Origin: Gemmatimonadota bacterium
GTDB lineage: Bacteria; Gemmatimonadota; Gemmatimonadetes; Longimicrobiales; Gaopeijiaceae
Assembly (NCBI GenBank): GCA_029262115.1
Contig: JAJCZZ010000016.1
Coordinates: forward strand, 62,001 to 126,000
Direction: 5' to 3'
DNA length: 64,000 nucleotides
The translations under genes were made by a program, and so were the position numbers. The notes beneath the pieces were generated by a model. That model did not search any database and had not been told where the DNA came from. It saw only the letters and a list, made by a program, of their open reading frames with translations. This document shows positions 5,995-12,158 of the stretch, piece after piece. Position 1 is the first letter of the stretch, and every line of letters starts with the position of its first letter.

Positions 5995-6375
5995 ATGACG
6001 AGCACACCACTGCTCGGCGGGAAGCCGGTTCCGTCGCTACTGGCCCGGGATCTCGAAGTCACGCTCGCCTTCTATGAGCGACTCGGGTTCGCCCGCACCG
6101 GCGTGTTCCCGGACGACGGGCCCCCTACCTGGGGCGAGGTCACCCGCGATGGCATCTCGCTTCAGTTCTACTCCGACCCGCCGCACGGCACGCCGACCGA
6201 GCCGATCTGCAGCGGGACGCTCTATGTGAACGCGAACGACGTACTGGCGCTGGCAGAGGAGCTGAGAGGTTACGCGCCGTTCGCCTGGGGGCCGGAGGTC
6301 ATGGACTACGGAATGCGCGAATTCGCCGTCAAGGACCCGAACGGCTACTTCCTGGCCTTCACGGAGCCTGCCTGA
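5995..6375 (+). CDS. VOC family (glyoxalase/bleomycin resistance-like) protein
   Basis: A 126-residue single VOC domain. The fold signature is visible: PVPSLLARDLEVTLAFYERLGF at the start and a C-terminal FAVKDPNGYFLAFTEPA with the usual metal-proximal glutamate. Such proteins include dioxygenases, glyoxalases and antibiotic-binding resistance proteins; the substrate is not predictable here. The ATG follows a strong GGAAGGAGG ribosome-binding site at 5982-5990, which settles the start. It is transcribed away from the penicillin acylase gene across a 242-bp gap. Confidence 0.9.
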   Translation: MTSTPLLGGKPVPSLLARDLEVTLAFYERLGFARTGVFPDDGPPTWGEVTRDGISLQFYSDPPHGTPTEPICSGTLYVNANDVLALAEELRGYAPFAWGPEVMDYGMREFAVKDPNGYFLAFTEPA

Positions 6376-6469
6376 GCCACGACGGCTTGGAAGGAAGCGA
6401 AGGAGTGCGACTACCCTCCGTCTCGGGTATCGAGCGTGCCCACCGGGAACTGTTGGGCGCGTCTTCGGC

Positions 6470-6778
6470 TCAGCCGAGCTTTGCCGCGATTACCTCGACC
6501 GACGGCGCGCCGTCCGCCCTGCACGCCATCGCGCTGTTGCCCGGGCCCTCCCCCGTCACGTCCCGGCCATCCACCAGGACGGTGGGGGAGCCATAGCGCT
6601 TGAAGACGTCCGGGGTCGATTCCTTCGAGAGATTCCACTCTACCCATTCGATCGGCCGGTCGAACGCCTGGGTGACGGCGCTCCGGATGTTCTCGCGCGC
6701 TTTCACGGCGTTCGGACAGCCGTCGAAGTAGACCAGTTCGAGCGTGGGGGGTGTTGGCATGTCAGTTTCAATCTCCAT
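6470..6778 (-). CDS. Thioredoxin-like protein of the mercury operon
   Basis: A 102-residue thioredoxin-fold protein. After a short N-terminus it has strand LELVYFDGCPNA with a single N-terminal cysteine (Cys21), a helix, IEWVEWNL, and the cis-proline segment YGSPTVLVDGRDVTG. Small proteins of this type recur in mer operons. I recall related members being described as possible selenoproteins at the Cys21 position, but here it is cysteine. It is the last gene of the operon. Its ATG (6778) lies inside the final codons of the upstream merP frame, an 11-nt overlap indicating translational coupling; a second ATG at 6760 would also preserve the fold. A redox or Hg-transfer partner role is inferred. 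Confidence 0.85.
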   Translation of the reverse strand: MEIETDMPTPPTLELVYFDGCPNAVKARENIRSAVTQAFDRPIEWVEWNLSKESTPDVFKRYGSPTVLVDGRDVTGEGPGNSAMACRADGAPSVEVIAAKLG

Positions 6779-7145
6779 CCGGGGGGCGTTCGGTGGCGCT
6801 GAAGTCAGTCAGCCGCTCCAACTCCGCGACGATCGCGGCCACAGACGTCATCGTCGTATCGAACGTCACGAAGCCTTCCGCTTGGTCGTACGAAAACTTC
6901 GCTTCGCTTACACCTTCTACTCGTTGCACGGCCACACGGGCCGCCGTGGCACAACCGTCTCAGGTCATGCCGGTGACGTCGAGCGCCACCGTCGTATAGG
7001 ACCCTTGAGCTTCGGCCATGTCGGCGGGCATCTCACCGTGGCCCATCGCTGCGTGATTCATGTCCGCATCATCGTGGCCGGGGATCTGAAGGAGAAGGCC
7101 CCCTCCGATCAGCACCGCCACCGCCGTCCACTGTTTCCAACCCAT
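6768..7145 (-). CDS. merP: MerP-like heavy-metal-associated protein, predicted selenoprotein (in-frame UGA)
   Basis: Read through the UGA at 6960-6962, this frame gives 125 residues: an N-terminal anchor or signal (GWKQWTAVAVLIGGGLLLQI), a His/Met-rich linker (HDDADMNHAAMGHGEM), then an HMA domain. HMA proteins bind soft metals with GMTCxxC. Here the motif reads GMT-UGA-D-G-C, so the stop codon sits exactly at the first metal-binding Cys (position 62), with Cys65 as the second. The domain continues intact (ATAARVAVQRVEGVSEAKF, then FVTFDTTMTSVAAIVAELER) to a TGA at 6768. AGGAG precedes the ATG with normal spacing, merT ends 14 nt upstream, and the downstream gene overlaps the end of the read-through frame. 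Selenocysteine insertion is the best explanation; a single Cys-to-stop mutation is the alternative. Confidence 0.75.
6931..6950 (-). promoter_or_regulatory. Candidate bacterial SECIS hairpin downstream of merP UGA
   Basis: Beginning 10 nt after the UGA codon, the transcript can fold as GCCAC paired with GTGGC. It may be extended by two further G-C pairs above a 2-nt bulge, closing a small G-containing loop about 16-20 nt from the UGA. Bacterial SECIS elements lie in this position within the coding sequence and carry a loop guanine and often a bulge. The structure was found by eye; no folding energy was calculated, and GC-rich sequence forms hairpins easily. Confidence 0.4.
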
Positions 7146-7159
7146 CCGAATACTCCTTC

Positions 7160-7507
7160 TCAGAATACGAGATCTTGCCAGCGTGGGAACGTGGCGAAGA
7201 CCACCGCCAACACGGTGGCACTCCACAGAGTGATCTTCATTCGTCGACGCACGTCCGGATCAGCGCACGGCTTTCCTGGCTCACAAGCGGCTTTCTCTTC
7301 CCGGTCGAGCATCACGAACCCCGCAATCAGAAAGATCGCGGTAGCACCCAGGAAGTACGGCCGAAACGGTTCGAACGCGGAGAGGCCGGCGCTCGAGACA
7401 CCAAGCGTCACGGCAATCACTGGACCCCCGCAGCACAGCGCGGAACCTGCCGCGGCCAACACGCCGCCGAGTCCTGGTACAACCGCCCTCAGTGAATCCC
7501 GCATCAT
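7160..7507 (-). CDS. merT: Mercuric ion transporter MerT
   Basis: Inner-membrane protein of 115 residues that moves Hg(II) from MerP or the periplasm to the cytoplasm. The first membrane helix carries the diagnostic cysteine pair ALCCGGP (Cys25-Cys26). A second helix (about 50-67) leads to a cytoplasmic loop with Cys75 and Cys81, and a third helix ends near FPRWQ. Length, three helices and both cysteine pairs match MerT. I start at the ATG-ATG pair at 7507; the frame is open upstream but that region holds the MerR-type promoter. It sits 14 nt before merP. Confidence 0.9.
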   Translation of the reverse strand: MMRDSLRAVVPGLGGVLAAAGSALCCGGPVIAVTLGVSSAGLSAFEPFRPYFLGATAIFLIAGFVMLDREEKAACEPGKPCADPDVRRRMKITLWSATVLAVVFATFPRWQDLVF

Positions 7508-7593
7508 CGTCCCCCGGCAATATCGAGCCACCCCATCAGCGTTGGGCCAAGAGGAAGCACTCCGAATCCCCGACGAGCGGCCCTGCACATGTA

Positions 7594-7624
7594 GTGTAAG
7601 CCCGGTACCGGAGTACAAGGTCAA
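7594..7624 (-). promoter_or_regulatory. MerR-type promoter/operator of merTP
   Basis: On the minus strand a TTGACC -35 element (7619-7624) and TTACAC -10 element (7594-7599) are separated by 19 bp, the overlong spacer typical of MerR-activated promoters. The spacer contains an imperfect dyad, TTGTAC and GTACCGGGC, resembling the one ahead of merR in this window. It lies about 87 nt before merT, just after the oxidoreductase gene, so merT, merP and the thioredoxin-like gene may be induced separately from the first two genes. Confidence 0.7.
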
Positions 7625-7636
7625 GGGCTGGACCGC

Positions 7637-9001
7637 CTAGACCATGGAAGCCAGGTCTGAGGCATAGCTGGGATAGGCGAAGACCACGGCCTTCATCTGG
7701 TTGGCTGTGAGACCCGCTCCCATGGCCATGGCGAAGAGGTTTATCTGCTCCTCCGCGCCTGGACCCAGCACGTGAGCGCCGACGATCCGGCCGGTGCCCT
7801 TCTCGATGAGGACCTTGTGAGCGGTGTAGGGCTCTGCGACCCGCAGCGAAGAATACCAATCCGCGGTCCTTCGAAACCGAACGTAGAACTCAACTCCGTC
7901 CGCGCGAGCCGCTTCCTCGAGCAGCCCCACGGAAGCGAGCGGGGGGACTGTGAAGACAGTCGAAGGAATTGGTGGATACTCGATGTGCCGGACGTCCTTA
8001 CCGGCGAGCAGGTTCTTGGCCGCGATGCGGCCTTCATTCGCTGAAATGGGCGTCAGGTTGGGCGCGCCGGTGTCGGCGCAGTCACCTGCAGCGAAGACGG
8101 CCGGGTTCGAGACACTGCGCATTGCCGTGGAGACGATGATGCCACGGTCGCTTGCCGCGACCCCGGCGGCGTCGAGAGCCAGATCCCCCAAATTCGGAAC
8201 GCGGCCTGCCCCATGAACCGCCATGTCGCACGAGAGAGTGTGGGGGCCTGTGAGCGTTTCAAAGCGCACCTGCAGTCCGTCGTCGGTTTTTTCGATCCCT
8301 TCCACGCACGACTCGAGACGGACGTCGATGCCCAGCTCACGTGTGCGCTCGACGAGCAGAGCGACGAGGTCTGGATCGAAGTGGACGAGCGGGCTCGCGC
8401 CGCGGTGAAGGATCGTGACGTTCGAGGCCCCGGCTCTGCGCACGATGTGAGCGAACTCGAAGGAGATGAAGCCGCCGCCTACGAACACGATACGCTTCGG
8501 AAGGCTCTCCAGATTGAGGAAGTCCGTGCTCGTGGACAGCAGCCCTTCGCCGGGGATCTCCAGGGTCGCGGGGCGGGCCCCTGTCGCGACGTGGACGTAG
8601 CGTGCCCGAAGCGACCGGTCACCGATCCGCACCTGGTTGGGGCCGGTGAACCGGGCGGTGCCGTGGAGCGTCTCGATCCCGAGTCGTTCGAAGCCGGTCT
8701 CCAGCCGTGGCGGAACCGCGTCGGTGAAGGTGCGCTTGAAGGCCATCATATCGGACCAATCGATCCAGATGCCGTCGCTCCGTAGACCGTTGCCGGTCAT
8801 CCGTTCGGCCCAGTCGAGCGCCTCGCTGACCGAGACCAGCATCTTCTTCGGATCGCAGCCCCGAAGCGCACACGTGCCCCCATAGGGAAGCGCGTCCACG
8901 ATGGCGACCTGCCAGCCCTCCTTCGCGCAGGCTCGGGCCACGCCGTTGGCCCCGGTGCCCGCCCCGATCACGACCAGATCGAAGCCTTCCACGTCACTCA
9001 T
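7637..9001 (-). CDS. MerA-like FAD/NAD(P) disulfide oxidoreductase lacking the C-terminal Cys pair
   Basis: A 454-residue flavoprotein with an N-terminal FAD-binding GAGTGANGVARA, the redox-active disulfide GGTCALRGCDPKKM (CxxxxC), an NAD(P)-binding GGGFISFEFAH, and the second FAD motif FAAGDCADTG, so the glutathione reductase / lipoamide dehydrogenase / MerA fold is clear. True mercuric reductase ends in a vicinal Cys-Cys and often has an N-terminal HMA domain. This protein ends YPSYASDLASMV and has neither, so Hg(II) reduction is not assured. Its ATG overlaps the merR stop by 4 nt (ATGA) and has an AAGGGAG ribosome-binding site. Reduction of the thioredoxin-like or Sec-containing partner is an alternative role. 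The active-site motif with LRGC differs from MerA VNVGC. Confidence 0.88.
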   Translation of the reverse strand: MSDVEGFDLVVIGAGTGANGVARACAKEGWQVAIVDALPYGGTCALRGCDPKKMLVSVSEALDWAERMTGNGLRSDGIWIDWSDMMAFKRTFTDAVPPRLETGFERLGIETLHGTARFTGPNQVRIGDRSLRARYVHVATGARPATLEIPGEGLLSTSTDFLNLESLPKRIVFVGGGFISFEFAHIVRRAGASNVTILHRGASPLVHFDPDLVALLVERTRELGIDVRLESCVEGIEKTDDGLQVRFETLTGPHTLSCDMAVHGAGRVPNLGDLALDAAGVAASDRGIIVSTAMRSVSNPAVFAAGDCADTGAPNLTPISANEGRIAAKNLLAGKDVRHIEYPPIPSTVFTVPPLASVGLLEEAARADGVEFYVRFRRTADWYSSLRVAEPYTAHKVLIEKGTGRIVGAHVLGPGAEEQINLFAMAMGAGLTANQMKAVVFAYPSYASDLASMV

Positions 9002-9432
9002 CCGGTATCTCCCTTCTGAGGCACCTGGCGACCAGCCTCGAGTTCCTCGAGGATCGGGCACTCGCTCGTCGGCTGGCGGGCTACGCACTTCTGCACCAGG
9101 CGCTCGAGCGAGTGCCCAATGCGCCGAAGGTCACCAATCTTGTCTTCCACTGTGGCGAGCTTGGCGCGTGCCCGTGCTTCTACGGTGACGCAAGCGGAGA
9201 CCTCGTCGATACGCAGGTCGAGGAGCTCGGTGATCTCAGCCAAAGTAAAGCCGAGTTCCTGGGCGCGGCGGATGAAGCGCAGCCGATCGATAGCTTCTGC
9301 GGGATAGTGTCGGTATCCCGCCCGGGAGCGTGGAGGCTCGTCGAGCAGACCCACCCGCTCATAGTAGCGAATGGTCTCGCGCCCTACGCCTGCCGCGTCG
9401 GCAAGCCGTCCAACCGTCAGCATGTCGCTCAT
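8998..9432 (-). CDS. merR: Hg(II)-responsive MerR regulator
   Basis: A 144-residue MerR-family activator/repressor: N-terminal winged helix-turn-helix (LTVGRLADAAGVGRETIRYYERVGLL), a helical linker, a long dimerisation helix and a C-terminal metal loop. Cys81, Cys116 and Cys125 occupy the same spacing as the three Hg ligands of Tn501 MerR (82, 117, 126), which supports mercury sensing over copper, zinc or redox sensing. It is the first gene of the operon. Its -10 element ends only a few bases before the ATG at 9432, so the message may be leaderless; an internal ATG at 9423 is the alternative start. Confidence 0.93.
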   Translation of the reverse strand: MSDMLTVGRLADAAGVGRETIRYYERVGLLDEPPRSRAGYRHYPAEAIDRLRFIRRAQELGFTLAEITELLDLRIDEVSACVTVEARARAKLATVEDKIGDLRRIGHSLERLVQKCVARQPTSECPILEELEAGRQVPQKGDTG

Positions 9433-9438
9433 GCCTGA

Positions 9439-9469
9439 GAGTAAACCCTGTAGTTACGTACAAGGTCAA
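9439..9469 (-). promoter_or_regulatory. MerR-type promoter/operator of merR operon
   Basis: Minus-strand TTGACC (9464-9469) and a weak TTACTC (9439-9444) are 19 bp apart. The spacer holds the near-perfect dyad ACCTTGTA and TACAGGGT around a GTAA-like centre, the classic MerR operator layout. The predicted transcription start falls at or next to the merR ATG. The same TTGACCTTGTAC core recurs ahead of merT, which supports both sites. Confidence 0.75.
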
Positions 9470-9500
9470 GCGGAACCGATTGGGCGGTGGCCGTGGCGGC

Positions 9501-12158
9501 CTACCGCGGCCGCAGCACCATGAGGGGATCCACTCGGGCCGCGCGCATGGCGGGAACGAGGGAAGCGGCGACCGCCACGGCTACGAGGATCGTAGCGACT
9601 ACCGCGAAGCTGAGCGGGTCCGTGGGGGCGACTTCAAACAGGAGGCCGGCCAGGATTTTACTGGCCAAGAGCGCGATGACGACTCCAAGCCCCACCCCCA
9701 CGATCGCCTGAAGCAGTCCACGCCGCACAACCAGGGCGACCACGTCGGCGCCTCCCGCCCCCACGGCCCGCCGGATTCCCACTTCCTCGAGGCGAGTGGA
9801 TACCGTGAAGGTGACGGTGGCATAGACTCCCACGGCAGCAATGCCCAGGGCGATCAGGGAGAACAAGCTGAGCAGTAGCGCATAGTGGCGCTCTTCGACC
9901 GTGTTCTCACCGACTCGATCGGCCAACGCCGATACATCGGTCAGCGGCACGTTGACGTCCGCCCGGACAGCCGCCTCGCGAAGCGCGGGCGTGAGGGCTG
10001 CGGCATCGCCCGAGTACCGAAACAGGAACGCCATCGACGGCATCCAGGGGTCCTGGTACCAGGAATGGTAGGCGAGTCCTTGAATTTCGGCTTTGGGTCC
10101 CCCGTTTCGGATGTCCGCCACCACCCCGATGACAACCCACTCGAGGTTCCCCTGCCCGACGGAACTCGACAGCGTCCGGCCGACGGGTGACTCCCCGGGC
10201 CAGAGGTCGTCCGCCAGCGACTCACTCACAACGATCTCCCGAACATCGTCGGGGCCCTCAGATGGGTCGAAATCCCGGCCTGCGATGAGCGGGATCCCGA
10301 CGGTGGAGAAGAAGCCGGGAAGGACGCTGTGGCGCCACCGCTTGAGCGGTTCTCCAGAGGCGGGGTGCTCGATCTCGAGTTGAACAGGCAGCCCCTCGCC
10401 GGGCAGGAACATGCTCCCGCTGACGTGGCTCACGCCGGGAATGGCCGCGAGTTGATCGCCCATGGTCCGCACGTAGTTGGTCGACGCTGGTTTGTCCGTC
10501 AGCGGACTCTGCCGGGTCGTGACGACATAGATCTCGTCCGTTTCGAAGCCCACCTCCACCATAGCGAGGCGTACGACGCTGTTGAGGAGTAGCGCTCCGC
10601 CTGCGACGAGCACCACAGTGAGGGCGATCTGGCCGACCACCAGGACCGCCCGAGCCGTCTGGCCGGAGGTCCCATCCAACGCAGTGAGGGTGAGATCCCG
10701 CCCCGGGTCGACCTGTGAGGTCGACCACGCGGGGACCATGCCGAAGGCGAGGCCGGCGAGCACGGAAGTCGCGGCCGCAAGGGCCGTGACCCGCATGTCG
10801 ACAGCCACCTCACCCGCGCGGGGAAGATCCGGTGTGAAAGCGGCGAGCGTATCGACCGAGAGGAACGCGAGAACGCATCCGACGGTGCCTCCAATCAGGG
10901 CGATGACGACGCTCTCCGTGAGGAGTTGGACGACGAGCCGGGCCCGCCCCGCACCAAGGACCGTTCGGAGAGAGATCTCACGGCGCCGATCGGCGCCACG
11001 GGCGAGAAACATGTTGGCGACGTTCGCGCAGGCGATGAGCAGCAAGGTTGCCACGCCCGCGAAAATCAGACCAAGCCGGTCGCCGATTTGACCGACGGTC
11101 TGGGCATGGAGGGGTCGTGCCTCGAGCATGCGAGGGGTGCCGTCGTTTTCGGTGTTCGCGCTCGGGTGCGCCTCCGCCAGAGCGAGCGCACTGGCCCGCA
11201 ACTGCTCGTTCGCGGCGCCCAGGTCGGAAGGGTCCGCCAGGCGTGCGACCCCGGAGGAGAATCCGAACGCCCGAGTCCGCTGCACGATTGGATCGCTGTA
11301 GTCGAGTGGAACCCACAGATCGCCGGCGGAGCCCCGGAGTGCCTCGGGAGGAATCCAATCTCTCGGGAGCACTCCCACGACGGTGAGGTCGCCGAGATCG
11401 GTCCGAAGCGTCGCGCCGAGGACGTTCGTCACTCCCCCCCATCGGCGCTGCCAGAGGTCGTGTGTGACGATCGCAACCGTGGGCTCCCGAAACTCGGACG
11501 CGTTAAAGCCGCGGCCTCGCGCGGGGTCCAGGCCCACGATGTTCATGAAGGCCCGCGTCGGGCGGGTGATCTGTTCGAGCGTGGCGCCTTCGTCGTCGTA
11601 CACGAGCGTGGAGCCACCCTGGACACCCCCGACCTCCGTGAAGGCGCCGATGGCCTCCTCGAGATCGATGAGGTTAGCCGTCGAGATCGGCGCCAACACA
11701 CCATTGTCCAACGGTCGTCCCACCTCCACGAGCACGTCCGGGTCGGGGTAGGGCAGCGGGCGCAGGAGAACGATGTCGATGACGGCGAATACGGCGGTCA
11801 CGCCAGCTACGCCAAGAGCGACGGGTCCGGCGGCGGCCAGGACAAAGCCGGGGTGGCGGCGTAGAGATCTGAAGCCGTGGGCAACGTCCGCCCGGTAGCA
11901 AAAGGGGCCACCCGAAGGCGAGCCTCGCCCGCCCCTCTCGGCCAGTCCGGCGGCAACCGCACTCACCGCATCGCGGGCCGTCAGCGAAAGGACCCCGAGC
12001 ACGCCCGTCCTCCCGTGCGCCTCCACGACACGATCGACATAGTAGGTCAGCGCGTCGGCTCCGTACTGGCGGCGGAAACGTGCGGGAAATGCGTACAGGC
12101 ACACGCTCACAATGAGGCGACCCGCACGAACGATTGTGGGGAGCGACGGGCCGGTCAT
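9501..12158 (-). CDS. ADOP-family FtsX/MacB-like ABC permease
   Basis: An 885-residue duplicated permease. A short N-terminal region (LYAFPARFRRQYG) is followed by a first helix (about 100-122), a periplasmic MacB-type domain (about 125-325), an FtsX three-helix block (about 370-480), then a second periplasmic domain and a second FtsX block (about 765-880) ending ARVDPLMVLRPR. This is the layout of the orphan permeases first noticed as duplicated in Acidobacteria, normally without an adjacent ATPase. No ATPase is adjacent here. A role in macrolide/peptide-type export or lipoprotein handling is only family inference. It overlaps the PadR gene by 4 nt, so the two are co-transcribed. Confidence 0.9.
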   Translation of the reverse strand: MTGPSLPTIVRAGRLIVSVCLYAFPARFRRQYGADALTYYVDRVVEAHGRTGVLGVLSLTARDAVSAVAAGLAERGGRGSPSGGPFCYRADVAHGFRSLRRHPGFVLAAAGPVALGVAGVTAVFAVIDIVLLRPLPYPDPDVLVEVGRPLDNGVLAPISTANLIDLEEAIGAFTEVGGVQGGSTLVYDDEGATLEQITRPTRAFMNIVGLDPARGRGFNASEFREPTVAIVTHDLWQRRWGGVTNVLGATLRTDLGDLTVVGVLPRDWIPPEALRGSAGDLWVPLDYSDPIVQRTRAFGFSSGVARLADPSDLGAANEQLRASALALAEAHPSANTENDGTPRMLEARPLHAQTVGQIGDRLGLIFAGVATLLLIACANVANMFLARGADRRREISLRTVLGAGRARLVVQLLTESVVIALIGGTVGCVLAFLSVDTLAAFTPDLPRAGEVAVDMRVTALAAATSVLAGLAFGMVPAWSTSQVDPGRDLTLTALDGTSGQTARAVLVVGQIALTVVLVAGGALLLNSVVRLAMVEVGFETDEIYVVTTRQSPLTDKPASTNYVRTMGDQLAAIPGVSHVSGSMFLPGEGLPVQLEIEHPASGEPLKRWRHSVLPGFFSTVGIPLIAGRDFDPSEGPDDVREIVVSESLADDLWPGESPVGRTLSSSVGQGNLEWVVIGVVADIRNGGPKAEIQGLAYHSWYQDPWMPSMAFLFRYSGDAAALTPALREAAVRADVNVPLTDVSALADRVGENTVEERHYALLLSLFSLIALGIAAVGVYATVTFTVSTRLEEVGIRRAVGAGGADVVALVVRRGLLQAIVGVGLGVVIALLASKILAGLLFEVAPTDPLSFAVVATILVAVAVAASLVPAMRAARVDPLMVLRPR

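Follow-up and report, generated by a model that had tools for sequence, protein, structure and literature searches.

The window analysed here, a stretch of 64,000 nucleotides from a Gemmatimonadota bacterium, harbours on its minus strand a run of genes in the order merR, FAD-dependent disulphide reductase, merT, merP and a small DF-family thioredoxin-like gene. The merP-like gene (6768..7145, minus strand) contains an in-frame UGA (6960..6962, minus strand), read here as selenocysteine, at codon 62, which is the position of the first metal ligand in the GMTxxxC motif. Its predicted product of 125 residues, including Sec62, comprises an N-terminal membrane anchor, a His/Met-rich linker and an HMA domain. 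Directly upstream lies merT (7160..7507, minus strand), whose product matches PF02411 with 73 bits and carries both cysteine pairs (CCGG and CEPGKPC). The merT-merP pair is preceded by a MerR-type operator/promoter, TTGACC-TTGTACTCCGGTACCGGGC-TTACAC, with a 19-bp spacer (7594..7624, minus strand); 0 matches to its strict core were expected in shuffled sequence, and similar MerR-type sites precede merT in several relatives. From this operator the merT-merP operon would appear to be under the control of MerR. The regulator gene itself (merR, 8998..9432, minus strand) encodes a protein scoring 143 bits against TIGR02051 (cut-off 150.85), with three cysteines at what we take to be the spacing of the MerR mercury site. 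Besides, a second MerR-type promoter-like site, TTGACCTTGTACGTAACTACAGGGTTTACTC (9439..9469, minus strand), was read by eye upstream of merR and falls outside the strict pattern.

Between merR and merT lies a gene for a pyridine-nucleotide disulphide oxidoreductase (7637..9001, minus strand) that resembles MerA and glutathione reductase and keeps the CxxxxC redox site. It ends in PSYASDLASMV without the C-terminal cysteine pair of MerA and scores 258.5 bits versus the MerA cut-off of 454; a search for MerA across the source genome returned no gene reaching this cut-off. In this the reductase departs from a canonical mer operon, whose MerA has the cysteine pair. The reductase standing in the place of merA may act on a different substrate. 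Five related loci with the UGA form of merP (L055, L066, L069, L071 and L106) and one with the Cys form (L061) encode a canonical MerA that has SCCA(V) at its C-terminus; merT adjoins merP in most of the UGA loci and merR lies near many of them. The last gene of the run (6470..6760, minus strand) encodes the DF-family protein in its Cys form. The family model NF049942 is named '(seleno)protein', and cysteine (YFDGCPN) is present in the window as well as in neighbouring loci.

The placement of the gene in a mercury operon, as originally predicted, is thus supported by MerT, MerR, the MerR-type operator and the MerA of relatives. A reading in which selenocysteine is inserted but the protein serves copper or general soft-metal chaperoning instead of mercury has some grounds, as HMA domains are common to MerP, CopZ and Cu-ATPases and the metals they bind include Cu(I) and Zn(II). 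The matches of the merP-like protein to PDB sequences comprise Cu-ATPases along with MerP, and the reductase of the window is not a canonical MerA. However, MerT encoded directly upstream, a MerR with three cysteines, the MerR-type operator and canonical MerA with its C-terminal CC in related loci all point to mercury, and the top PDB match is MerP itself (1osd, E 2.5e-6). We therefore consider a role with another metal unlikely.

Translated from 7145 to 6768 with TGA as U, the merP-like frame reads MGWKQWTAVAVLIGGGLLLQIPGHDDADMNHAAMGHGEMPADMAEAQGSYTTVALDVTGMT-U-DGCATAARVAVQRVEGVSEAKFSYDQAEGFVTFDTTMTSVAAIVAELERLTDFSATERPPDGD and closes with a terminal TGA; the protein starts with MGWKQW, carries VTGMT-U-DGCATAARVAV at the metal site and ends in PPDGD. 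The TGA at 6962-6960 is the sole internal stop, and the original prediction of one UGA at the first HMA cysteine (GMT-U-DGC), followed by a normal stop, was borne out by the translation. The HMA domain was likewise found intact across the UGA, PF00403 spanning residues 55-111 with 40.6 bits against a cut-off of 24.8, and the AlphaFold model (built with 15 homologues) contains a helix at residues 3-19 and an HMA fold at residues 50-120 with pLDDT of about 95. A Shine-Dalgarno-like GAAGGAG (7153..7159, minus strand), read directly in the sequence, is located 7 nt 5' of the ATG. The earlier claim that the downstream gene starts within the end of the read-through frame holds in part: ATG 6778 is a possible start and would overlap the last codons of merP, but ATG 6760, which falls just past the merP stop, is an equal or better one.

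The UGA might also work as a selenium-dependent switch, in which an anchored peptide of 61 residues is the product when selenium is lacking and the full-length Sec protein is made only in its presence. Decoding of UGA in bacteria generally competes with termination, and the short product would stop just before the metal site. Yet nothing in the sequence hints that the truncated form has a function. The linker that precedes the UGA is poorly conserved and of low confidence in the AlphaFold model, and such a switch seems improbable to us.

The presence of the genes for selenocysteine insertion had been named as a check on the prediction, and family searches located all four in the source genome: selA (C53, 527 bits), selB (C93, 303 bits), selD (C17, 382 bits) and the tRNA-Sec gene selC with anticodon UCA (C59, 65.9 bits). 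The selD gene of the genome (G000:C17:3609-4535, L062) itself has an in-frame UGA, in the context GAG-U-ACK, followed by a hairpin of 7 bp with the loop CAUGU, which ends in GU like the loop after the merP UGA. The selA gene scored above cut-off in 18 of 18 genomes with the UGA form of merP and in 46 of 78 relatives; the nine UGA genomes among these 78 all possess it (hypergeometric p = 0.006, uncorrected for kinship). Many of the sister genes with cysteine also sit in selA-positive genomes, so a genome that can decode Sec need not carry the UGA form.

Downstream of the UGA, where a candidate SECIS element had been proposed within 6960-6920, a compact hairpin GCGGCC-CGUGU-GGCCGU was delineated (6928..6944, minus strand), with 6 bp and a 5-nt apical loop starting 21 nt after the UGA. 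The bacterial SECIS model calls for a loop of 3-9 nt with G at one of its first two positions, an upper stem of 4-16 bp, a distance to the UGA of 16-37 nt and an energy of -7.5 kcal/mol or lower (2026 review, PMC13188914), and the hairpin of the window lies within each of these limits (loop CGUGU with G second, 6 bp, 21 nt, -9.5 kcal/mol). It takes up positions 19-35 counted from the T of the UGA, all UGA copies can be aligned gap-free from the UGA onwards, and close variants of the hairpin occur among them. Pairing in the UGA copies amounts to 114 of 120 cells, whereas shuffles of synonymous codons averaged 93.3 and none reached 114 (0 of 5000); in 14 Cys homologues it is at chance (55 of 84 cells versus 54.3 shuffled). 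Similarly, synonymous codons 6-11 are identical in 79% of same-amino-acid pairs of the UGA genes (shuffles 36%, maximum 48%), compared with 40% against 33% shuffled in the Cys homologues. We examined with the shuffles and the Cys homologues whether the hairpin is a mere by-product of the codons for A-A-R-V-A-V; such an origin accounts for the pairing in the Cys genes but not for that in the UGA genes.

Sliding the hairpin position as a control lowered the paired cells to 28-70%, and RNAalifold recovered the same stem. Compensatory double changes were seen in two pairs, the covariation resting on two sequences. The distant copies L073, L087, L089, L090 and L094 form 5 of 6 pairs with stem energies of +0.7 to -6.6 kcal/mol, and in a longer stretch of the window the minimum-energy fold pairs slightly differently from the 6944-6928 hairpin. 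An Rfam scan of 6300-9700 gave no match. The stem alone is no proof of a SECIS element, because six pairs can still be formed at this site in the Cys gene of G030. With conservation beyond coding need and the fit to the bacterial SECIS model taken together, the proposed element gained support. Such a hairpin could in principle promote plain readthrough, in which a near-cognate tRNA or an altered code would have the UGA read as Trp or Cys. However, the Sec machinery is complete, the hairpin fits the bacterial SECIS model and homologues carry cysteine at the site, which makes another amino acid highly improbable; an altered code was rejected because TGA also serves as the terminal stop of merP itself and of many homologues.

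Homologue searches covered 78 relatives, 395 genomes of the phylum and a named genome collection. TGA stands at the position of codon 62 in 20 of 20 homologous genes from 18 genomes, with no other stop in frame, and the second ligand, Cys65, is cysteine in all 20, giving the motif UxxC throughout; the alignment that had been suggested further yielded 14 sister or outgroup copies with cysteine in place of the UGA. Where carriers of the UGA form are named, they are MAGs of Gemmatimonadota, apart from a single MAG chromosome of the Acidobacteriota (Terriglobia), OX638355.1; these relatives place the source genome in the Gemmatimonadota. Two genomes hold two diverged UGA copies of merP each (G219:C20, loci L105 and L106; G042, loci L066 and L074). 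No relatives were found on viral contigs or plasmids. Downstream of the hairpin, the ten closest UGA copies have a mean pN of 0.185, a mean pS of 0.621 and a median dN/dS of 0.148, with pN<pS in 45 of 45 pairs. This purifying selection argues that the region 3' of the UGA is translated, and the degraded frames in close relatives that would have spoken against the prediction are replaced by intact ones. Although the source genome is a draft in 110 contigs, a pseudogene or sequencing error, whether the TGA of one assembly arose by nonsense mutation or by misreading of TGC/TGT, has a negligible chance of being correct, as the TGA is common to 20 homologues and dN/dS after it is 0.15, and an error in a single assembly or a chance TGA is ruled out by its recurrence in 18 separately assembled genomes.

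In the gene tree, a single Cys gene, that of G030, groups within the UGA clade, where its branch is long, and this genome is without selA; its Cys form fits a reversion from Sec to Cys after the loss of Sec decoding. On the Terriglobia chromosome (L065), which has selA, the cluster merR-merT-merP(U)-DF is 76-86% identical to the genes of the window, and a transfer of this selenoprotein mercury cluster between phyla is probable from the sequences. Taken together, we lean towards a phylum-wide Gemmatimonadota lineage of anchored carriers that evolved a mixed selenolate/thiolate (UxxC) site for Hg(II), maintained by selection along with a SECIS element of their own, which may have been shared with Acidobacteriota by transfer and may revert to Cys upon loss of selenium decoding.

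Predicted selenoproteins of mercury systems, to which the original prediction alluded, are found in the literature. A selenoprotein 'Mercuric transport protein MerP' was predicted in the 2008 Global Ocean Sampling survey (PMC2398784, Table 2), which, like the protein of the window, is a MerP-type mercury protein with predicted Sec. As it appears in that table, it comprises 2 sequences from 1 sample with no Cys homologue there and no Sec motif stated, whereas the present clade has 20 copies with UxxC, the two being set apart by description only. Reviews also list a selenoprotein MerT, the UxxU protein NF041115, UxxC cation ATPases and other mercury-linked selenoproteins (PMC9312934, PMC13188914). 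NF041115 (UxxU_metal_bind), entered as a 'putative mercuric reductase' selenoprotein (PMC13188914), is HMA-like with Sec in the metal motif, as is the protein of the window, and among NCBIfam models it matched the scanned members best. However, it has two Sec residues (UxxU) over 74 positions, whereas the protein of the window combines UxxC with an N-terminal anchor and scores 66.5 bits versus a cut-off of 95. NF045683 (MerT_CopZ_Se) likewise brings MerT and HMA together in one heavy-metal selenoprotein system, but as a single fusion-like MerT/CopZ protein, whereas MerT and MerP are encoded by separate genes in the window (37.9 bits versus a cut-off of 375).

Canonical MerP (TIGR02052; PDB 1osd and 1afi) shares with the present gene the HMA fold, a GMTCxxC-type site and merT as neighbour; it is a free periplasmic Cys protein, in contrast to the Sec in place of the first cysteine and the membrane anchor predicted here. 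The HMA fold, the GMTxxxC site, the merT neighbour and an operon under putative MerR control are the features of MerP found at the locus; the score against TIGR02052 is 46.3 bits versus a cut-off of 92.55, and the protein falls below the cut-off of every NCBIfam model that it matched. Our literature search, with subscription papers mostly outside its scope, found no description of mercury-operon selenoproteins in Gemmatimonadota. Selenium in proteins of mercury operons has thus been predicted before, and the anchored UxxC clade appears to be undescribed.

Sec machinery, conservation of the UGA, selection, hairpin and operon together uphold the original proposal of a MerP-like selenoprotein. 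On the strength of the sequence evidence, the Gemmatimonadota bacterium very probably puts selenocysteine into the metal site of a predicted mercury-carrier protein, which is probably a membrane-anchored Hg(II) carrier using a selenolate plus a thiolate. In the mechanism we propose, SelB would recognise the hairpin and bring Sec-tRNA(Sec) to the internal UGA, the N-terminal helix would anchor the protein so that the GMT-Sec-x-x-Cys site is displayed outside the inner membrane, and the HMA domain would take up Hg(II) between Sec62 and Cys65 as a selenolate/thiolate complex and hand it on to MerT, its neighbour, which would import it. The steps leading up to Sec insertion have strong sequence evidence, from which we infer the insertion itself; Hg(II) as the metal and its transfer to MerT are suggested by the operon and by analogy with known MerP. 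We hold the scheme as a whole, an anchored MerP-like HMA protein with SelB/SECIS-guided Sec that captures Hg(II) and passes it to MerT, with high confidence.

Standard annotation ends such genes at the UGA or begins them past it, and gene finders miss them; mercury operons of selenium-using bacteria can therefore appear to lack MerP. Most known selenoproteins are redox enzymes in which Sec improves catalysis. Selenium binds mercury very tightly, and it may be for this affinity that Sec is favoured at the metal site. Selenocysteine in a non-catalytic metal carrier would provide a natural test of selenium as a mercury ligand.
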